This document shows, one piece after another, positions 54,347 through 61,329 of a stretch of 64,000 nucleotides of DNA. The stretch is from positions 1 to 64,000 of the forward strand of contig CAMLLD010000014.1 of assembly GCA_946480785.1 (NCBI GenBank), written 5' to 3'. Under the pieces are notes generated by a model. That model made no database searches. It was not told the DNA's origin and saw only the letters and a program-made list of their open reading frames with translations. The translations under genes were made by a program, and so were the position numbers. Source of the DNA: an uncultured Blastocatellia bacterium (GTDB lineage: Bacteria > Acidobacteriota > Blastocatellia > Pyrinomonadales > Pyrinomonadaceae). Every line of letters begins with the position of its first letter. Within the stretch, counting starts at the first letter, position 1.

Positions 54347-54808
54347 TTATTCAACCAACTCAGTTTGCCAGTTCAGTTCCTGAATGCGCGCGTCCAGCTC
54401 GCGATAGTTCTTTGCGAGTTCGTCCGCACGCTTTTGCAGGTCGGCAACGCTGACTGTGGCCACGTACTTCACTTCGGAACGTGTGTAGCGACCTTGTGTG
54501 ATGGAAGCAGCTTGCGCCATTTCCACGTAAGCCGCACGCTGCAATGCCAGCACATCACGTTCGGCCAGCACATCCGAGAGTGTTTCCCCGCCGGCGCTGA
54601 ACACAGTCACCGAGTTTGTCTTGTTGATACGCTTGATAAATTCGAGCAGCTCGTTCGCTACACGACCAAGTTCAGCGAGCAGGTCCGCCGGAGTTTCTGC
54701 CGGCACATCGCCTTCCTGAACCTTGGCGTTGACGACCAGTCTCGCCTTCAGTTGCTCAAATCGCTTTTGGCAATCAGCGCGTCGAATTAGTGCTTCTGCT
54801 AGTTTCAT
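54347..54808 (-). CDS. DIP1984-family protein in the tRNA array
   Basis: 153 residues, GGAGG about 9 bases before the ATG. Helical N-terminus MKLAEALIRRADCQKRFEQL, NAKVQEGD, INKTNSVT, LAERDVLALQRAAYVEMAQA and the C-terminal ELDARIQELNWQTELVE match the DIP1984 (septicolysin-like) family, predicted coiled-coil, of unknown function. It lies 56 bases downstream of tRNA-Gln on the array strand and appears to be its last protein gene. Confidence 0.85.
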   Translation of the reverse strand: MKLAEALIRRADCQKRFEQLKARLVVNAKVQEGDVPAETPADLLAELGRVANELLEFIKRINKTNSVTVFSAGGETLSDVLAERDVLALQRAAYVEMAQAASITQGRYTRSEVKYVATVSVADLQKRADELAKNYRELDARIQELNWQTELVE

Positions 54809-54864
54809 CGTAAATTCACCTCCACTTGTTTCATCGAAGTACCTTTTCGTTTGCGATTGGAGTG

Positions 54865-54939
54865 TGGCTCCGGGAGAAGGAGTCGAACCTTCATCTTCGA
54901 GTTCAAAGCCCGACGTGCTGCCAGTTGCACCATCCCGAA
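54865..54939 (-). tRNA. tRNA-Gln(TTG)
   Basis: Acceptor TTCGGGA pairs with TCCCGGA (one G-T). D-stem GTGC/GCAC, anticodon arm TCGGG-CTTTGAA-CTCGA (anticodon TTG), T-arm GAAGG-TTCGACT-CCTTC. Discriminator G and CCA are encoded. Confidence 0.93.
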
Positions 54940-54946
54940 AAGAGAG

Positions 54947-55022
54947 TGGTTGACCCGGCGGGGCTCAAACCCGCACGTCGCGACTTAAAAGGTCGCTGCT
55001 CTGTCACTCGAGCTCCGGGTCA
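54947..55022 (-). tRNA. tRNA-Lys(TTT)
   Basis: Acceptor TGACCCG/CGGGTCA, D-stem GCTC/GAGC, anticodon arm GCGAC-CTTTTAA-GTCGC, T-arm GCGGG-TTTGAGC-CCCGC. T instead of C at position 56 is unusual. Discriminator A, CCA encoded. Confidence 0.92.
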
Positions 55023-55028
55023 AAAGAT

Positions 55029-55104
55029 TGGCTGTGGCGGAAGGACTCGAACCTTCGATAGCCGCATTAACGGTGCGGTGCCTTACCAACTTGGCTACGC
55101 CACA
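55029..55104 (-). tRNA. tRNA-Asn(GTT) with C33
   Basis: Acceptor TGTGGCG/CGCCACA, D-stem GCC/GGC, anticodon arm CCGCA-CCGTTAA-TGCGG, T-arm GAAGG-TTCGAGT-CCTTC. The anticodon loop has C where U33 is expected. Discriminator G, CCA encoded. Confidence 0.92.
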
Positions 55105-55143
55105 AGAAACTTGGACCATCAACCGCGACGCGTTTGCGATGAC

Positions 55144-55223
55144 TGGCTGCGGCGGCGAGAGTCGAACTCGCATCAACTCGATTACAAGTCGAGCGCTCTG
55201 GTTTCCAATTGAGCTACGCCGCA
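55144..55223 (-). tRNA. tRNA-Thr(TGT)
   Basis: Acceptor TGCGGCG/CGCCGCA, D-stem GCTC/GAGC with a 12-base loop, anticodon arm CTCGA-CTTGTAA-TCGAG, T-arm GCGAG-TTCGACT-CTCGC. Discriminator G, CCA encoded. Confidence 0.93.
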
Positions 55224-55229
55224 AAATTT

Positions 55230-55304
55230 TGGTGGACCGGAAGGGAGTCAAACCCTCACAAGAAGTTTGCAGGACTTCTATGCTGTCAGTTACATCACCA
55301 GCCC
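55230..55304 (-). tRNA. tRNA-Ala(TGC) with C33
   Basis: Acceptor GGGCTGG/CCGGTCC includes G3-T70, the alanine identity pair. D-stem ATGT/GCAT, anticodon arm GAAGT-CCTGCAA-ACTTC with C at position 33, T-arm GAGGG-TTTGACT-CCCTT. Discriminator A, CCA encoded. Confidence 0.9.
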
Positions 55305-55310
55305 GAAACC

Positions 55311-55387
55311 TGGTAGCTGTGGGTGGATTCGAACCACCAACCTCGCGCTTATGAGACGCTTGCTCTGTCCCTTTGAGCTACACAGCC
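55311..55387 (-). tRNA. tRNA-Met(CAT), elongator-like
   Basis: Acceptor GGCTGTG/CACAGCT (G1-T72), D-stem GCTC/GAGC, anticodon arm AGCGT-CTCATAA-GCGCG with an A27-G43 mismatch, T-arm GGTGG-TTCGAAT-CCACC. Discriminator A, CCA encoded. A lysidine-modified Ile tRNA is a possible alternative. Confidence 0.88.
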
Positions 55388-55420
55388 ATTGTCTTTTGGG
55401 AGCCCGCGGAGGAAAGTTGG

Positions 55421-55499
55421 GCCACAGATGACACGGATGGACACGGATCAGAGACCTCGGTTGTCTGGATCCGTGTTTTATCTGTGTTCATCTGTGGTG
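55421..55499. repeat. Inverted repeat, copy 2 of the dispersed family
   Basis: The left arm GCCACAGATGACACGGATGG and the right arm (ATCTGTGTTCATCTGTGG) face each other, related to the element at 13502-13627. It sits between tRNA-Met and the HNH gene, so it has entered the array. Confidence 0.6.
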
Positions 55500-56081
55500 C
55501 TAAGCGCCTCGCTGCTCGCGGCGGACGCGGTCCATCACGTCACGATCGTCGTGCACGTCCATGAAGAGGTACTTGCGCCACTCGGCGCGCGCCTCTGCAT
55601 AGTGACAAAGCACAACGCGTTCGAGCTTCACGCGCAGCGCCGTCTGCGAAGTAAGCAGCGGCATTCGTGCTTCCGCCGGCGTGCGATCGCGCTTGCGGTT
55701 GTTGCACTGCAGACAAGCCGTGACGATGTTCACGGGCGAGTTATCACCACCGCGCGAACGCGGCAGAATGTGATCGAGCGTCAACTCGGCCGCAGTCTTC
55801 TTGTCGCCGCAGTACTGGCAACGAAACTTGTCGCGCATGTAAATGCGCAGACGCTTCATGCCCGACTGCTCGCGGCGGCGGCGCACGTTGATGTAAATGC
55901 GACGGCGAATCACCGAAGGCACGGGAAACGCATCGTGCGCCGAGCGCAGCACGCGAACGCCGTCATACTCTTCGACGAACACCGTGTTCTTGAACGTCAT
56001 GACGATTGCGCGCGCGACACTGACGGTGCCGAGCGGTTCGTACGTTTGGTTGAGTAGTAGAACTCGGTCAGTGAGTGCCAT
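55500..56081 (-). CDS. HNH endonuclease within the tRNA array
   Basis: 193 residues. The N-terminal half (LLLNQTYEPLGTVSVARAI) is that of the common bacterial HNH family. The nuclease core has zinc-binding CQYCG and CLQCNN pairs flanking LTLDHILPRSRGGDNSPVNIV, with the catalytic His. The start has AAAGGAGGT, like rtcB. It lies between tRNA-Met and tRNA-Cys on the array strand. The family is usually solitary; here a role in homing of the array or in RNA/DNA cleavage is open. Confidence 0.9.
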   Translation of the reverse strand: MALTDRVLLLNQTYEPLGTVSVARAIVMTFKNTVFVEEYDGVRVLRSAHDAFPVPSVIRRRIYINVRRRREQSGMKRLRIYMRDKFRCQYCGDKKTAAELTLDHILPRSRGGDNSPVNIVTACLQCNNRKRDRTPAEARMPLLTSQTALRVKLERVVLCHYAEARAEWRKYLFMDVHDDRDVMDRVRREQRGA

Positions 56082-56136
56082 TACCCGGCACCTCCTTTCT
56101 TCGTGTTTGGACCACGCGTTGGTGGCCGCGGTAGTT

Positions 56137-56212
56137 TGGAGCGCGCGGTGAGACTCGAACTCACGAATACCGGATTTGCAATCCGGCGCCTTGGCCGCTT
56201 GGCGACGCGCGC
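56137..56212 (-). tRNA. tRNA-Cys(GCA)
   Basis: Acceptor GCGCGCG/CGCGCGC, D-stem GCC/GGC, anticodon arm CCGGA-TTGCAAA-TCCGG, T-arm GTGAG-TTCGAGT-CTCAC. Discriminator T (cysteine identity), CCA encoded. Confidence 0.95.
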
Positions 56213-56216
56213 TAAG

Positions 56217-56291
56217 TGGAACGGAAGGAGAGATTCGAACTCTCGAGTCGAGTTTGGAAGACTCGCATGTTTCCAGCTACATCACTTCCGC
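56217..56291 (-). tRNA. tRNA-Gly(TCC)
   Basis: Acceptor GCGGAAG/CTTCCGT, D-stem ATG/CAT, anticodon arm CGAGT-CTTCCAA-ACTCG, T-arm GAGAG-TTCGAAT-CTCTC. Discriminator T, CCA encoded. Confidence 0.93.
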
Positions 56292-56297
56292 GGAAGG

Positions 56298-56325
56298 GGC
56301 GCAGGTCAAAGGGATCACCTGCGCC
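56298..56325. other. Hairpin between tRNA-Pro and tRNA-Gly
   Basis: GGCGCAGGT and ACCTGCGCC pair perfectly (9 bases, 10-base loop) in the 75-base spacer. It could be a processing site of the array transcript; there is no T-run. Confidence 0.5.
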
Positions 56326-56366
56326 GTTGGTTGTGGGGTGAGATCGTTTGTAACAGGGAGATGCTT

Positions 56367-56440
56367 TGGTCGGGGAGGACAGAGTCGAACTGTCACCACG
56401 AGTTCCCAAGACTCGGATGCTTGCGTTACACCACACCCCG
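56367..56440 (-). tRNA. tRNA-Pro(TGG)
   Basis: Acceptor CGGGGTG/CTCCCCG has a T-T mismatch at the sixth pair. D-stem GTGT/GCAT, anticodon arm CGAGT-CTTGGGA-ACTCG with G37, T-arm GACAG-TTCGACT-CTGTC. Discriminator A, CCA encoded. Confidence 0.9.
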
Positions 56441-56491
56441 AATTGTTTCTGGAATTGAAAAGCGCGGGAGCGTGCGCGAAGGACCGAAGCT

Positions 56492-57670
56492 TCAGCCCTT
56501 CACGCAAACTACTTGCTTGATCTCGGCGACGACTTCAACCAGATCTTCCTGGTTCTTCATCACCGCTTCGATCGATTTGTAAGCGCCGGGAATTTCATCC
56601 AGTACGCCCACGTCTTTGCGACATTCAACACCCGACGTTTGGCGCGCCAGATCATCCTTCGTAAACGCGCGCTTGGCCGCGCCGCGCGACATCTTGCGAC
56701 CCGCGCCGTGCGAGCACGAATTGAAACTCTCCGCCAATCCGCGTCCGCGAACGATGAACGACTTCGCGCCCATCGATCCGGGAATGATGCCAAACGCGCC
56801 CTGCTCAGCGTTGATTGCGCCCTTGCGCGTGACGAAAACTTTCTCGCCATAGTGCTCTTCGAGCGCAACGTAGTTGTGATGACAGTTGACCTGAATTTCA
56901 GGCTTGAACGGCTGGCGATGATTGAACATCTTGTTGAAGACCTTCAACAGACGCGCCATCATGATCTCGCGGTTCTTCATCGCATACCCTTGCGCCCACT
57001 TCAAGTCTTTCCAGTAAGCCGCAAATTCAGGTGTGCCCTGAATGAAGTATGCGAGGTCCGGCGCCGGCAGCTCTGTTAGCGTCCACAACGACTTCGCTGT
57101 CGAGATGTGACGATCGGCGAGTTCCTTACCGATGTTGCGCGAACCCGAGTGAAGCATCAACCAAACGAAGTTTTCCGTGTCGAGACAAACTTCGATGAAG
57201 TGGTTACCGCCACCGAGCGAGCCGAGCTGCTTCATCGCTTTCGCTTTGCGATCGCGAACGCCTTTATGCAGATCGTCGAAGTCTCGCCAACCTTCCCAGT
57301 CTGAAGCTTCGTCGACCGTCTCTTTGTTCTCGCTAAACCCGGTGGGAATCGCTTCTTCGATCGCAAGTCGCAGGTCTTTCAACTTGCCGTCGAGAATGTG
57401 GCTTTTGAAAGGCGTCTTCACCGCCATCATGCCGCAACCGATATCGACGCCGACCGTCGCCGGGATCACCGCTTCCTTTGTCGCGACCACCGAACCGACC
57501 ATGCTGCCTTTGCCGAGGTGTGCGTCCGGCATCAGCGCGACGTGCTTGAACAGGCACGGCAAGCGCGCAACGTTGCGCAGCATCGCTTGCTCTTCCAGCG
57601 AGAACTCGTGATTGGCCCACGAGAGTATTTCGTATTGTTCGCTACCGATGGGTAGCTTTTCGTAAGGCAT
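56492..57670 (-). CDS. rtcB: RNA-splicing ligase RtcB inside the tRNA array
   Basis: 392 residues. Metal/GMP-site motifs are PDAHLGKGSMVGSVVAT, GVDIGCGM (Cys ligand), GSLGGGNHFIEVC, HSGSRNIGK, NCHHNYV and the guanylylated-His region SCSHGAGRKMSRGAA. It joins 2',3'-cyclic phosphate (or 3'-phosphate) and 5'-OH RNA ends using Mn2+ and GTP, and so can reseal tRNAs cut in the anticodon loop. AGGAGG lies upstream of the ATG, 30 bases after tRNA-Lys(CTT). It is cotranscribed with tRNA genes by position, an arrangement that points to tRNA repair. Confidence 0.95.
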   Translation of the reverse strand: MPYEKLPIGSEQYEILSWANHEFSLEEQAMLRNVARLPCLFKHVALMPDAHLGKGSMVGSVVATKEAVIPATVGVDIGCGMMAVKTPFKSHILDGKLKDLRLAIEEAIPTGFSENKETVDEASDWEGWRDFDDLHKGVRDRKAKAMKQLGSLGGGNHFIEVCLDTENFVWLMLHSGSRNIGKELADRHISTAKSLWTLTELPAPDLAYFIQGTPEFAAYWKDLKWAQGYAMKNREIMMARLLKVFNKMFNHRQPFKPEIQVNCHHNYVALEEHYGEKVFVTRKGAINAEQGAFGIIPGSMGAKSFIVRGRGLAESFNSCSHGAGRKMSRGAAKRAFTKDDLARQTSGVECRKDVGVLDEIPGAYKSIEAVMKNQEDLVEVVAEIKQVVCVKG

Positions 57671-57700
57671 TATCGACCTCCTTTCTAAGTGTAGTTGAAT

Positions 57701-57778
57701 TGGTGCGCCAGGTGAGACTCTAACTCACAGTCCCCTGCTTAAGAGGCAGGTGCCTTGATCCGATTTGGCTACTGACGC
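57701..57778 (-). tRNA. tRNA-Lys(CTT)
   Basis: Acceptor GCGTCAG/CTGGCGC, D-stem GCC/GGC, anticodon arm CCTGC-CTCTTAA-GCAGG, T-arm GTGAG-TTAGAGT-CTCAC with A at position 56 instead of C. Discriminator A, CCA encoded. Confidence 0.92.
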
Positions 57779-57779
57779 A

Positions 57780-57799
57780 TGGCGGAACTGAACGGACTC
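57780..57799 (-). repeat. Duplicated tRNA-Asp 3' end, left boundary of a 2.6 kb insert
   Basis: TGGCGGAACTGAACGGACTC is identical to the 3' end of tRNA-Asp (60424-60443); similarity decays in the next bases. It directly follows tRNA-Lys(CTT), where the next array tRNA is expected. It behaves as an att-like direct repeat with 60424-60443. Confidence 0.7.
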
Positions 57800-58022
57800 A
57801 ATCCTTGATATCTTTGTGTTCTCGGCGTAAATCATAGCTAGCCGAATTTGGTAGCATTGAGAAAAGTTTGTGGAACTTCAGCAATGGCTTCTATTCGTTA
57901 AGGAAAACGCTTTGTCATCCGAAGCAGTTGCCGATGACTGACCATTCAGTCGCGGCATCTGCAAGTAAGAACCTAACAGCGCTTGCCGCAGTGCAACAGA
58001 CTTATCTGTGCCAAGGGACATA

Positions 58023-58889
58023 ATGAGTGACATATATGATTTCAATGATGTACCTCACCGAATCCGCTCTGCCAGCGCAGCTTTTCAGAAGGGCATCTAT
58101 CACCTATACGTTCAGAGATTCCATGGGGCGGAAGATCTCTTCACATCTGTAATTCGCAGTTATCAGTGTTTGTTTCAATTATGCCTAACTTACCTTCTCT
58201 TGGATTCAACATTTTCCATAAGGTCCGACGATATTCGGTTAAGACGACTGACGAAGCTGTGTGCCGATCCGAAGCGTCCAACTCGTCGTGAAATCGATCC
58301 GGCCGCTGTGATAAACCATTCAATTTTTGAGAAGCATGGTAAATGGCACGGTCTTCCTTCAAGCCATCCGTTGCACTCCGGGAGCGTCAAAGCACTTAGA
58401 TTTCTTCAAACCATTGTTGACGCACGGCATAACCTGGTCTACCGCCCATTCATGCTTGATCGGCTCTGGGAAGATTGCACTTTGATGGATCTGCTGAAGA
58501 ACAGACCGACCACAGAGGAAATTGAAGATGCGTATCGCCAGTTTATGTCCGAAGTCTTCAATTGGCACAGCGAATACGAGCCAAAAAGACAAGACGCAGT
58601 TAAGAAATACCTGGCAACACTAACGTTGCAAGATTTGCCGGATCATCCGCGGCGTGATGTACCACCGGTTGGCCCAGCATACTTCTTAGATCATGTCTTC
58701 ATGATTTATGAGGACATCAGAGACTCACGTCCAACAGAAACCTTGCTATTAACCTACGCGCGAATGCTAAACGGCGACAACGAGGCCTTACTAGAGGATT
58801 TAAAAACCTATCGGAATGATCTGCTGCAAGTGGATAGAGTGAAAGCCTTAGTCGAATTCCCAGCCGAATGGCGAATGGGCGATGTATAG
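58023..58889 (+). CDS. Unknown protein in the insert, possibly HEPN-like
   Basis: 288 residues from the ATG at 58023 (AAGGGA 5 bases before); a GTG at 58008 is less likely. Entirely helical, soluble. The DARHNLVYRPFM stretch near residue 140 faintly resembles HEPN RNase/nucleotide-binding motifs, but the Rx4-6H spacing is not exact. Codon use is more AT-rich than the flanking genes, as in acquired DNA. It runs against the array strand and lies alone in the insert with the SGNH gene. Confidence 0.7.
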   Translation: MSDIYDFNDVPHRIRSASAAFQKGIYHLYVQRFHGAEDLFTSVIRSYQCLFQLCLTYLLLDSTFSIRSDDIRLRRLTKLCADPKRPTRREIDPAAVINHSIFEKHGKWHGLPSSHPLHSGSVKALRFLQTIVDARHNLVYRPFMLDRLWEDCTLMDLLKNRPTTEEIEDAYRQFMSEVFNWHSEYEPKRQDAVKKYLATLTLQDLPDHPRRDVPPVGPAYFLDHVFMIYEDIRDSRPTETLLLTYARMLNGDNEALLEDLKTYRNDLLQVDRVKALVEFPAEWRMGDV

Positions 58890-58942
58890 GGCCGCGCAGC
58901 CGAACTGGCGAGACGAAGGACGGGAGATCGCGCCCAGCTCAT

Positions 58943-60352
58943 TTAAGAGCCTGATGGAGCTATGAGTCCTGCTTGCCGTAAAGCATCGATCAGCGATAAG
59001 GAGTACGCCCGATGCCCCTCCTCAGTGGGATGAAACGTACCTAAAGAGATAATGCAGTCTTTCAGTGAATTGTGTGACATAAAGGCAGAGAAATTACATT
59101 TTCCCGCGGCTCCTTGTATTTCCCTGGACTCCCGGTAGGTTCGAACCCAATGGTTAATTTGCCCGTCAGTGTCGCGGGCGCAATATCCGTGGGTTTTGAA
59201 CTTGTCAGAGATGCCGGTAACAAAAACCCAGCCGAATTGATTTGCCGCCTTTTCGATCTTCTGATTGAGTCCTGAAATCACAACTGTAGATGCCCATGTT
59301 GCTTCGTCGTGCGATATCAAACCCAGGGGATCATTAACAGGCTTGCGATCACATAGCTTTCCACGTTCATCATGAACAACGTCGGGATATTCGGTAATGA
59401 AAACCTTCTTTACAGCCGGCAGGGCTGCGATCCTGTTACTCAACGCGAGATAACGCGCGTCAAGTCCGTCCATGCCTGAAGAGAACTTGTTGAGAGTATT
59501 CAGATCACGGCTGCAATCATGATGAAGAATGCAGCTCGTAACGAGATCTGCAAACCCAATGTCATTGCCTCCTCCAGAGATTATCAGGGCATCAATAGGG
59601 CGCCCTTTTAGGGCATCTTTAAGTCGATCTATTTGTGCTGGTAGTACGGTTTGCCCGATTTGTTGCTCACCAAGAATGCCCCAGAGAACTTGGGCTCCCG
59701 TGCAGGCGAATGAAATGAACGTGACCGAGGTATGTGGATCGTCGTCCTCAATTTGGCGGGCGGCCTGAGCTGGACCAGCCGCCGCAGAACGGGCACAGAT
59801 CTCATCAACCCATTTCGCCCGAATTGAGCCGTGCTTCGGTATATCAGGATTTCCCTGGCCCGACGCAAACGAATCACCGAGTGAAACTATCAACAAATCC
59901 TTGATTGTTACCGGAGACTCGAGGATGGCTTGCGTGCCGTCGGACGTCGTATATGTGAGCCTGACGAGGTACGTTCCTTGAGCGGCAAATTCATGTGAAA
60001 AGTTGCATGAAGTGGGATTAGGATTTTGAATGGCGACCCCATCAATCTCCCAAAGAAAGGGGCTGGTCGCCGAACTGGGTAACGAACAAGCGTTGAACTC
60101 AACCGTCCACCCTTTTGGGTTAACGTAGTCCTTTTCATAAACGGTTCCATCCCAATGATAATCCACGATTCCGTCGGCGCGTCTGGCGCCAAAACGTTTC
60201 TGCATACTCCAGGTAAACGTAGGGGTTTGAACGACACTGGTTGCATAGACTTTCCGCTCAAGTGGATGCGCAGCGTGGAGCAGAACGAGCAGGCACACAG
60301 TGCTAATAGTTACTCCGCAAATAGCTAATAAAGTCGTAGAAATTCTCTTCAT
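58943..60352 (-). CDS. Exported SGNH/GDSL hydrolase in the insert
   Basis: 469 residues from the ATG at 60352; the frame extends into tRNA genes upstream and those codons are not real. Signal peptide (TTLLAICGVTISTVCLLVLL), an N-terminal Ig/PKD-like domain (about 30-150), then the SGNH core: block I LLIVSLGDSFASGQGNP, block III SGGGNDIGF, and block V GTFHPTEEGHRAYS with catalytic Asp/His. It is probably an extracellular esterase or lipase. No ribosome site is obvious. Confidence 0.85.
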   Translation of the reverse strand: MKRISTTLLAICGVTISTVCLLVLLHAAHPLERKVYATSVVQTPTFTWSMQKRFGARRADGIVDYHWDGTVYEKDYVNPKGWTVEFNACSLPSSATSPFLWEIDGVAIQNPNPTSCNFSHEFAAQGTYLVRLTYTTSDGTQAILESPVTIKDLLIVSLGDSFASGQGNPDIPKHGSIRAKWVDEICARSAAAGPAQAARQIEDDDPHTSVTFISFACTGAQVLWGILGEQQIGQTVLPAQIDRLKDALKGRPIDALIISGGGNDIGFADLVTSCILHHDCSRDLNTLNKFSSGMDGLDARYLALSNRIAALPAVKKVFITEYPDVVHDERGKLCDRKPVNDPLGLISHDEATWASTVVISGLNQKIEKAANQFGWVFVTGISDKFKTHGYCARDTDGQINHWVRTYRESREIQGAAGKCNFSAFMSHNSLKDCIISLGTFHPTEEGHRAYSLSLIDALRQAGLIAPSGS

Positions 60353-60423
60353 AAGTTCAAGCCGACCACAATATGTCTTCACCTGAATATGAGTTTGAGT
60401 TGAAAAACGTTTCAAACGGAGAT

Positions 60424-60498
60424 TGGCGGAACTGAACGGACTCGAACCGTCATCGACTTGGTTGACAACCAAGTGCCTCACCTCTCGGCCACAGTTCC
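60424..60498 (-). tRNA. tRNA-Asp(GTC)
   Basis: Acceptor GGAACTG/CAGTTCC, D-stem GCC/GGC, anticodon arm CTTGG-TTGTCAA-CCAAG, T-arm GACGG-TTCGAGT-CCGTT. Discriminator G, CCA encoded. Its 3' 20 bases are duplicated at 57780-57799. Confidence 0.94.
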
Positions 60499-60506
60499 GT
60501 TGGTAT

Positions 60507-60583
60507 TGGTAGCGCGTGCCGGATTTGAACCGGCGTTCTCCTGATTGAAGGTCAGGCGGCTTTATCCACTTGCCTAACGCGCC
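60507..60583 (-). tRNA. tRNA-Glu(TTC) with C33
   Basis: Acceptor GGCGCGT/ACGCGCT, D-stem GGC/GCC, anticodon arm CCTGA-CCTTCAA-TCAGG with C at position 33, T-arm GCCGG-TTCAAAT-CCGGC. Discriminator A, CCA encoded. Confidence 0.92.
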
Positions 60584-60591
60584 GCGTGAGT

Positions 60592-60667
60592 TGGGTGGGT
60601 CGAAGGGAGTTGAACCCTCACCTGGCGCAGTCACAGTGCGCTGCTCTGCGATTAAGCTACGACCCAC
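60592..60667 (-). tRNA. tRNA-His(GTG)
   Basis: Encoded G-1, acceptor TGGGTCG/CGACCCA and C73 (histidine identity). D-stem GCTT/GAGC, anticodon arm GCGCA-CTGTGAC-TGCGC, T-arm GAGGG-TTCAACT-CCCTT. CCA encoded. Confidence 0.95.
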
Positions 60668-60679
60668 ATAAACGAGAGT

Positions 60680-60756
60680 TGGTACCGGCCGAGGGATTCG
60701 AACCCCCACTGACTAGTTTCTAAAACTAGTGCCTCTCCCAATTGGGCTACGCCGGC
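60680..60756 (-). tRNA. Class I tRNA with leucine anticodon TAG
   Basis: Acceptor GCCGGCG/GGCCGGT (G7-G66 mismatch), D-stem GCC/GGC, anticodon arm CTAGT-TTTAGAA-ACTAG, variable loop of only 5 bases, T-arm GGGGG-TTCGAAT-CCCTC. Bacterial Leu tRNAs are class II; this body is not. Discriminator A, CCA encoded. Confidence 0.88.
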
Positions 60757-60770
60757 AGAAATTTCATATT

Positions 60771-60848
60771 TGGTGGACCTGACACGATTTGAACGTGTGA
60801 CCTCGACCTTCGCAGAGTCGCGCTCTGATTCCACTGAGCTACAGGTCC
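60771..60848 (-). tRNA. tRNA-Arg(GCG)
   Basis: Acceptor GGACCTG/CAGGTCC, D-stem GCTC/GAGC, anticodon arm CGACT-CTGCGAA-GGTCG, T-arm ACACG-TTCAAAT-CGTGT. Discriminator A, CCA encoded. Bacteria normally read CGN with ACG (inosine); GCG is rare. First tRNA of the array. Confidence 0.93.
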
Positions 60849-61060
60849 GAAAATTTTGCTGGTCCAATATGCAAATGAAAACTCGTTATGCTAAAAAACA
60901 GATGAAGGCAGCGAGAACAATGTCGCGAACACACTTCGAGACACACTTCTCCCGAGGATGGCGATCTCTCGGACTCTCGCAAAGCACCGAGATCGTCATC
61001 CGGCTGAAGGCTCCTGCCTTCATCTCTCGCAAAAAAGGTACTTCGATTGTCAAAAAACAA
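60849..61060 (-). other. Upstream spacer of the tRNA array
   Basis: No convincing frame. A TTGACA on the minus strand (61053-61048) could be a -35 element but has no good -10 partner 16-18 bases on. The array promoter must lie here unless readthrough of the terminator at 61051-61103 feeds it. Confidence 0.35.
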
Positions 61061-61103
61061 AAGGAGCGGGCATTTAGCCTCCCAGGGAAGCTGCCCGCTC
61101 CTT
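61051..61103 (-). terminator. Intrinsic terminator upstream of the tRNA array
   Basis: AAGGAGCGGGCA and TGCCCGCTCCTT form a perfect 12-bp stem (61061-61072/61092-61103). On the minus strand the stem is followed by TTTTGTTTTTT. Confidence 0.85.
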
Positions 61104-61133
61104 ACAATCCTCGCGAATTTGTTCGTTGGAATT

Positions 61134-61153
61134 GGGAGCGGGAGTCCGCTCCC
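61134..61153. other. Short perfect hairpin behind the small ORF
   Basis: GGGAGCGG-GAGT-CCGCTCCC (8 bp, 4-base loop). It shares the GGAGCGGG core with the terminator stem 40 bases away, so the two could form alternative pairings. Confidence 0.6.
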
Positions 61154-61158
61154 GCTGA

Positions 61159-61329
61159 CTAAAACCTATTAGGCCGACGATCTAAGAACGTCTGTTGTCC
61201 GAGTCTACCGACATAACTGGCGGACGCGGTCAGGCGTGACGCACACATCTGCCGGTGTATGGCGGCGCTCGGCGTCGTGCCGTTCGGCTGCCATTTGGCG
61301 ATGTGTTCGACTGTGGGTTTAATCGTCAT
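61159..61329 (-). CDS. Small ORF (56 residues) between a promoter and a terminator
   Basis: On the minus strand an ATG at 61329 opens MTIKPTVEHIAKWQPNG..., ending SYVGRLGQQTFLDRRPNRF. A GAGG lies about 11 bases upstream, a sigma70-like promoter at 61371-61400 and an intrinsic terminator at 61051-61103. The product is basic, with no family recognised. Expression is plausible but unproven; it could be a leader peptide or DNA-binding fragment. Confidence 0.4.
   Translation of the reverse strand: MTIKPTVEHIAKWQPNGTTPSAAIHRQMCASRLTASASYVGRLGQQTFLDRRPNRF

Follow-up and report, generated by a model that had tools for sequence, protein, structure and literature searches.

A tRNA array with embedded rtcB, HNH and DIP1984 genes behind a predicted attenuator in the Pyrinomonadaceae, a probable reserve-tRNA and RNA-repair operon

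Arrays of tRNA genes with an embedded HNH nuclease gene are already published, as the relevant passages of PMC5966550, PMC12803027 and PMC6582537 describe. In the L-array of Anabaena sp. PCC 7120 (the trn operon of plasmid delta), extra tRNA genes lie on one strand with an adjacent HNH gene. According to the sections of PMC10272220 and PMC9938897 that deal with it, this array is normally silent and is induced by translation inhibitors, and the L-array, HNH and rtcB are jointly upregulated when translation is stressed or the repressor TrcR is lost; the authors of PMC9938897 caution that the erythromycin in their strain may be responsible. Here we describe a related locus on the minus strand of a 64,000-nucleotide stretch of an uncultured Blastocatellia bacterium of the Pyrinomonadaceae (GenBank assembly GCA_946480785.1, contig CAMLLD010000014.1, positions 1 to 64,000; hereafter the window). 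Among known systems it comes closest to the tRNA L-array with HNH, which spreads horizontally. In Anabaena, as far as those sections go, rtcB is a separate chromosomal gene, whereas in the window rtcB and a DIP1984 gene lie in the array itself and a putative RNA attenuator lies ahead of it; these in-operon genes and the putative attenuator set the locus apart. A first-pass annotation of the window had suggested that the gene set was undescribed, which may hold for the in-operon RtcB and DIP1984, but not for HNH-bearing tRNA arrays or for the joint response of L-array, HNH and rtcB. We consider it probable, from sequence comparisons, that the locus is a chromosomal reserve-tRNA and RNA-repair operon under transcription attenuation. 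Such an operon would bring together tRNA replacement and RNA repair, which in Anabaena are co-regulated but apart.

A search of the entire window with ARAGORN gave 15 tRNA genes, every one of them on the minus strand, at 54865-60848. They span 5,984 bp and represent 14 amino acids by anticodon. All 15 encode CCA and score above the Rfam RF00005 gathering cut-off, and 297 of the 300 stem pairs checked are canonical. In the direction of transcription, tRNA-Arg(GCG) (60771-60848) is followed by tRNA-Leu(TAG) (60680-60756), tRNA-His(GTG) (60592-60666), tRNA-Glu(TTC) (60507-60583), tRNA-Asp(GTC) (60424-60498), an insertion, tRNA-Lys(CTT) (57701-57778), rtcB (56492-57670), tRNA-Pro(TGG) (56367-56440), tRNA-Gly(TCC) (56217-56291), tRNA-Cys(GCA) (56137-56212), the HNH endonuclease gene (55500-56081), tRNA-Met(CAT) (55311-55387), tRNA-Ala(TGC) (55230-55304), tRNA-Thr(TGT) (55144-55223), tRNA-Asn(GTT) (55029-55104), tRNA-Lys(TTT) (54947-55022), tRNA-Gln(TTG) (54865-54939) and the DIP1984 family gene (54347-54808). 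The first-pass annotation was therefore right about a one-strand array with encoded CCA ends and about the three protein genes between or after the tRNAs, which Pfam places on the same strand, and the strong ribosome sites it reported ahead of rtcB and HNH (AAAGGAGGT) are present in the sequence. One published definition of an L-array reportedly asks for at least 20 tRNA genes in a dense one-strand cluster; the window array, with 15, falls under that number, a relative (G095) has 28, and the embedded HNH nuclease, an L-array feature, is present in the window.

The RNA ligase RtcB is full-length, covering positions 2-426 of 426 of PF01139 (E 5.1e-123), and contains by eye VDIGCG, GGGNH and SHGAGR, which we take to be conserved RtcB motifs. 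The HNH protein matches HNH_5 (PF14279) and phrog_16726, and the DIP1984 protein matches DUF6847 (PF20935, E 6e-55), with an uncharacterised PDB relative, 3kdq. Among five locus proteins scanned, RtcB and HNH had PHROG matches; PADLOC gave a generic HNH similarity and one weak DIP1984 match, and nothing else, for the locus proteins.

The locus recurs in relatives. The closest RtcB relatives (73-88% identity) are in acidobacterial metagenome-assembled genomes (MAGs; loci L001-L004 and L010), with 13 tRNAs around rtcB in L001, 28 in L002, a single tRNA-Pro in each of L003 and L004, and none in L010; the L001 genome has 13 more on a second contig, and HNH lies 3' of rtcB in all five. Between these two genes, L001 (2091-2882) and L002 (9260-9952) carry unrelated orphan open reading frames (ORFs) of 263 and 230 amino acids without a Pfam match. 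In the relative G001 the gene order is close to that of the window, with Glu and His swapped, extra tRNAs, and a split over two contigs. G095, the fullest locus read, has 28 tRNAs for 20 amino acids and no DIP1984 match. Its first half runs leader, Tyr, Trp, Ser, Ser, Arg, Leu, Leu, Leu, Glu, His, Asp, Lys, rtcB, and its second half continues with Pro, Gly, Arg, Gly, Cys, HNH, Phe, Val, Arg, Met, Ala, Thr, Asn, Lys, Ile, Ile, Gln. In both G095 and the window, rtcB follows Lys(CTT) and HNH follows Cys. Judged by this order, the window array is a shortened, interrupted version of a recurring family locus, with His and Glu swapped relative to G095. G119 has a similar array with HNH, and no rtcB match within the 16 kb read. 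Across the family, HNH matches at E<=1e-3 occur in 113 of 119 genomes, with a paralogue of ~42% identity included in the count, and 17 of the 30 best HNH loci have at least 4 tRNAs in ~3 kb. A proteobacterial locus, L048 (Scleromatobacter), has the same HNH family with 8 tRNAs and rtcB ~6 kb apart.

Ahead of the array lies a conserved leader (60889-61176, minus strand; nhmmer profile match), whose conservation first surfaced as a tblastn side-match. The window, G001, G005 and G002 supplied the profile and match by construction; G003 gave an independent match to part of the leader (E 1.1e-10). In G004 the hairpin and terminator described below lie 86 bases 5' of rtcB, and G005 has the leader, rtcB and HNH without tRNAs at the locus. 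Nucleotide identity between window and G005 is 86% in the leader versus 81.6% in rtcB. Segments 1 (GGGAGCGG, 61146-61153) and 2 (CCGCTCCC, 61134-61141) are predicted to form a hairpin (1:2, 61134-61153), and segments 3 (GGAGCGG, 61095-61101) and 4 (CCGCTCC, 61063-61069), with a U-run (61052-61062), a terminator-like structure (3:4, 61052-61101). In all six genomes 8/8 pairs of 1:2, 7/7 pairs of an antiterminator (2:3) and the 7-bp core of 3:4 (G-U allowed) can form; G003 has one inner mismatch in the 3:4 stem. Segment 2 is able to pair with either segment 1 or segment 3, and segment 3 with either 2 or 4, so that the pairings are mutually exclusive, and in G002 all four segments carry a matching G-to-A/C-to-T change. 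The leader thus appears to have what defines an attenuator, namely conserved, mutually exclusive pairings and a terminator U-run. These are the features of trp-type 1-2-3-4 attenuators; unlike those, the window leader would drive tRNA genes, and no leader peptide is established.

To follow this arrangement across genomes, segments 1-2-3 were used as a search pattern. In the window it matches at 61095-61153, with no match in 100 shuffles, and it occurs exactly once in each of G001-G005. It was found at 52 places in 47 of 119 family genomes, while the reversed control matched none of the 119. We fetched 32 of these places and sought segment 4 and a T-run, which are not part of the pattern, within ~110 bases, allowing G-U; both were present, with a 7/7 antiterminator, in all 32. 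tRNAs follow in 27 of them (within the fetched stretch) and rtcB within 1.5 kb in 3, one place having both and three neither. In the inner part of the terminator stem, 32 of 33 sequences have canonical pairs at positions 1 and 2, where five pair types each occur, and 25 of 33 have one at position 3, where the letters also vary; none of 2000 shuffles, which ignore kinship, scored as high for any of the three. The pattern and a listed HNH match share a contig in 31 of the 47 genomes (different contigs in the other 16). It lies upstream of HNH on the same strand in all 30 tabulated, at 1.2-23.2 kb (median 4.8 kb), and likewise, by listed coordinates, in the 31st, G104. In a sample of the phylum, the pattern was present in 19 of 396 genomes; by handle, 14 of these belong to the 119 of the family. 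Two of the five out-of-family genomes were inspected, both with tRNAs downstream; by eye, G180 has a terminator and U-run, and in G444 the outer pairs are less complete. No Rfam family matches the leader at E<=1, and the literature on the attenuator itself was not searched; at loose thresholds, Rfam gave for the window and two relatives tRNA and reverse-strand look-alikes only, and neither leader module.

The second leader module (60893-61026) is a predicted three-way junction with a 12-bp closing stem followed by a U-run. It folds as such in the window, G001, G005 and G002; in G003 the interior folds otherwise. The closing stem, picked by eye, has 12/12 to 14/14 pairs in five genomes and is built from three unrelated stem sequences. 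Fully pairing closing stems with a U-run were seen in the window, L111, L010, L112 and L003. The module may act as an additional terminator or be a small RNA in its own right. Two further observations concern the leader: TTTGACAATCGAA, directly after the first U-run (61042-61054), is near-invariant in five genomes and might be a promoter element, a protein-binding site or a pairing partner, and G001 has a partial leader copy away from its array (C538:3268-3324, L315) with hairpin 1:2 and no terminator.

The array tRNAs have kept their structure while diverging. Fourteen of the 15 have a counterpart in G001, with 241 of 280 stem pairs identical. Among the 39 differing pairs, both sides had changed in 30, in every case with pairing preserved; 6 of the 9 one-sided changes also retain the pair. 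Thr and Asp, which may be replacements rather than orthologues of those in G001, contribute 17 of the 30 double changes, and the remaining 13 all pair too. By eye against G001 and G002, and in their variable arms, array tRNAs are clearly unlike the housekeeping isoacceptors. Eleven of the 15 window anticodons also occur outside the array in G001, as do 11 in G002, genomes in which 36 and 38 other tRNA genes were found. By eye, tRNA-Lys(TTT) and tRNA-Ala have U56 in the T-loop and GA replacing GG in the D-loop, possibly an A19-U56 swap for G19-C56.

The most distinctive tRNA is tRNA-Leu(TAG), which has a 5-base variable loop in place of the long arm. In G001 and G002 all nine housekeeping tRNA-Leu are long-armed, whereas the array tRNA-Leu of the window, G001 and G002 are short-armed in 8 of 8 cases; array Ser and Tyr tRNAs there are long-armed (6/6). 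We extended the count to arrays of at least five tRNAs in 3 kb, duplicates removed, at loci picked by RtcB, HNH or DIP1984 similarity. In this first set the short/long numbers were 44/34 for Leu, 1/39 for Ser and 0/8 for Tyr, and outside clusters 3 tRNA-Leu were short and 5 long. A second set of further family loci gave 29/8, 0/15 and 0/17, respectively, so that in the two sets together 73 of 115 leucine-anticodon array tRNAs are without the long variable arm. Not every array tRNA-Leu is short-armed: the 34 long-armed genes of the first set rule this out, viral loci found through HNH alone have 22 short and 30 long, and one of the five tRNA-Leu of virus Rctr197k has an 11-base variable region. 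The tRNA-Leu of phages T4 and T5 are long-armed.

Leucine identity elements were checked because ARAGORN assigns amino acids from the anticodon. The window tRNA-Leu keeps A14, A15-U48 and A73. The A15-U48 pair is kept in 68 of the 73 short-armed genes (41/44 in the first set, 27/29 in the second) compared with 136 of the 419 other class I tRNAs in first-set arrays, a comparison of related sequences whose p-value overstates. A73 is present in 39 of the 44 short-armed first-set tRNA-Leu, and three of the five misses are L002 genes in which the ARAGORN frame lies one base early and A73 is there by eye. The short-armed tRNA-Leu therefore retain elements important in E. coli leucine-identity work. 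In its relevant passages, a tRNA identity review (PMC9976931) states that only animal mitochondria lack the arm; the arrays thus drop the arm where, by those passages, charging does not need it, and keep it in Ser. The present tRNAs would be natural, recurrent cases of a shape that the review, in those passages, credits to animal mitochondria alone; one mycobacterial cluster tRNA-Leu(TAG) with a short loop was noted before, in a passage of PMC6582537.

DIP1984 is present in 8 of 119 family genomes (E<=1e-10), in seven of them on the same contig and strand as the HNH gene or the leader. Outside the Acidobacteriota it occurs in 4 of 75 rtcB loci. In three Acinetobacter loci it lies between rtcB and rtcA, with kptA/Tpt1 after rtcA in two and, by eye, a transposase-like pair between rtcB and DIP1984 in one (L067); in a Psychrobacter locus it lies 4.6 kb after rtcB. 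Proteobacterial rsr-rtcBA operons, which are regulated by RtcR, are comparable in joining RtcB to RNA partners; in the window, by contrast, neither rtcA nor kptA is represented among seven proteins between 53388 and 60352 that were scanned with Pfam. No DIP1984 was found in viral contigs, and no literature was found on DIP1984 together with RtcB and tRNA. These linkages support DIP1984, as judged by gene neighbourhood, as a member of the rtcB/HNH/tRNA locus, and they give this family, which is unassigned in Pfam, a link to RNA repair in two distantly related groups of bacteria.

Phages and plasmids share this kind of array, since the same HNH family sits in tRNA arrays of a Nostoc plasmid, an M. 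avium plasmid, virus Rctr197k and the acidobacterial phage Tunturi_5. The Nostoc plasmid pNsp_d, an L-array relative, has HNH with 24 tRNAs, including one short-arm tRNA-Leu. Mycobacterial tRNA array units resemble the window in having many tRNAs and a conserved HNH inside, as sections of PMC5966550 and PMC12803027 describe, and in M. avium pS2b a DIP1984 relative, in two aligned pieces, adjoins the array. They differ in that rtcB goes unmentioned in the text of PMC12803027 and PMC6582537, in that the 18-kb pS2b locus has no RtcB match, and in their GOLLD RNA, whereas the window has no Rfam family but tRNA at cut-off. In some phages RtcB accompanies a tRNA array, whether or not this HNH family is there too: Tunturi_5 carries RtcB too, and the near-duplicate IMG/VR loci L306 and L307 combine RtcB, HNH and a cluster of 29 tRNAs. 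Among 21 IMG/VR loci found by viral HNH (some duplicates), 15 have clusters of at least five tRNAs. These, unlike the window, are phage genomes, and the single match to the attenuator pattern in viral contigs (L335), among Mu-like structural genes (by eye) and without a U-run or tRNA, was put down to chance. HNH or DIP1984 is not always array-bound: of six plasmid loci with either gene, arrays are present at L185 and L186, while the other four (L187-L190) are devoid of tRNAs.

From the observed gene order and its recurrence, the exclusive pairings and their covariation, the structural conservation of the tRNAs, the leucine elements and the DIP1984 linkage, the locus might work as follows. By default the leader would fold 1:2, allowing the 3:4 terminator to form and keeping the array silent. 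Under translational stress something would occupy or block segment 1, 2:3 would pair in place of the terminator, and polymerase would read into the array. The transcript would be cut into spare elongator tRNAs, divergent from the housekeeping set and presumably still chargeable, and RtcB would be made and reseal RNA with 2',3'-cyclic phosphate or 3'-phosphate and 5'-OH ends. DIP1984 may act as a repair accessory, and HNH is array-associated and probably a homing-type nuclease that aids spread or recombination of the array. Such a locus could sustain protein synthesis in a cell whose normal tRNAs have been damaged, and the leader would be a candidate switch for how silent tRNA arrays get turned on, short enough to be open to in vitro work. 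In its broadest form the proposal is of a new Acidobacteriota riboregulator class (a 1-2-3-4 attenuator, followed mostly by tRNAs, with a second, three-way-junction module) that reserves a full spare elongator tRNA set with RtcB for release when translation fails, with short-arm tRNA-Leu as a functional, recurrent bacterial and phage type and DIP1984/DUF6847 as a new RNA-repair family; to this we give slightly better than an even chance. The window array, reduced to 15 tRNAs and with 2.6 kb inserted between its first five tRNAs and rtcB, may itself work poorly in this strain.

Several observations weigh against the proposal of an attenuated reserve-tRNA and repair operon. The window array is without Phe, Val, Ile, Ser, Tyr and Trp tRNAs, its tRNA-Lys(CTT) has an A in the T-loop where C is expected, and an insertion with an opposite-strand ORF divides the transcription unit. 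Four anticodons in each genome were unseen outside the array (Thr TGT, Ala TGC, Gly TCC and Arg GCG in G001; Asn GTT, Ala TGC, Gly TCC and Arg GCG in G002), so that 'supernumerary' is unproven for these; both genomes are MAGs, in which 150 of 230 and 150 of 524 tRNA candidates, respectively, were scored. Leader identity between window and G001, 75.6%, is below the 81.6% of rtcB, the exact pattern is missing from 72 of the 119 genomes of the family, at inner terminator pairs 4-6 the sequences do no better than the 2000 shuffles, and the shuffles take no account of kinship. Since the reversed control matched 4 of 396 phylum genomes, the pattern alone is not specific outside the family. No sigma-70-type promoter was called in the leader by a simple promoter/terminator scan, which found fewer sites than in shuffles and whose loop limit of 8 makes it unable to detect 3:4. 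Lastly, rtcB near more than five tRNAs, an arrangement the first-pass annotation had singled out, recurs in relatives (G001, G095) but is uncommon elsewhere: among loci found by RtcB, clusters of at least five tRNAs are present at 4 of 80 in genomes and at 14 of 80 in IMG/VR.

The earlier suggestion of a repair-and-replacement cassette against tRNA-cleaving nucleases fares well in its first part, as rtcB, HNH, tRNAs and DIP1984 form one recurring locus and a repair-and-replacement unit is plausible; a nuclease as trigger is conjecture, and general translational stress as in Anabaena would fit equally. A strict anti-nuclease cassette is a narrower form of the explanation we prefer: tRNA-cleaving toxins of phage defence or competitors would select for cleavage-resistant array tRNAs as replacements, while RtcB mends the rest. 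We regard this form as less likely than not. Phage tRNAs with anticodon-loop changes escape cleavage, according to a passage of PMC10264068, and the window Asp, Glu and His loops are unlike the G001 and G002 housekeeping ones within positions 32-38; a tRNA-Leu with a short arm would evade a nuclease that reads the arm, and the same HNH family, sometimes with RtcB, is found in phage tRNA arrays, including Tunturi_5 with its acidobacterial host and L306/L307. The loop differences may, however, merely reflect foreign ancestry, and the Anabaena array responds to ribosome antibiotics.

Alternatively, the array could be decaying cargo of a phage or plasmid, kept by HNH-driven homing and of no present use to the host. 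The presence of HNH in mobile tRNA arrays, the array-less rtcB-HNH loci of G003, G004 and G005, and the reduced, interrupted window copy would all fit; we nevertheless find it improbable in view of the 30 fully compensated double stem changes, the conserved and covarying leader, and the gene slots that recur across genomes. Use as decoys, with the tRNAs serving as nuclease bait or signalling RNAs outside translation, would suit their divergent sequences and the missing variable arm. It is very improbable given that tRNA-Leu retains A15-U48 with A73, that Ser and Tyr retain the long arm, and that the array tRNA-Ala retains G3-U70 (by eye), as the G3-U70 rule for tRNA-Ala demands. An ordinary housekeeping tRNA operon, to which the four of 15 anticodons unseen elsewhere in G001, and likewise in G002, might point, is disfavoured to the point of being barely credible: both genomes have their other tRNA genes, with long-armed tRNA-Leu, and G003 and G004 are without an array at the locus yet have 40 and 38 tRNA matches.

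The insertion that interrupts the window array (2,644 bp, 57780-60423) lies between tRNA-Asp and tRNA-Lys(CTT) and, like the short variable loop of tRNA-Leu(TAG) and the upstream leader, was absent from the first-pass annotation. It contains a GDSL/SGNH hydrolase gene (PKD/GDSL; 58943-60352, minus strand) and, on the plus strand, an orphan ORF of 293 amino acids (58008-58889) with no Pfam, PADLOC or PHROG match. Neither of these two larger genes is an integrase, and neither had a tblastn match in 255 other loci of more than 3 kb. A 20-bp copy of the tRNA-Asp 3' end lies at the far side of the insertion (57780-57799). In G001 tRNA-Asp and tRNA-Lys(CTT) are 11 bases apart, and the insertion is therefore probably a secondary event.

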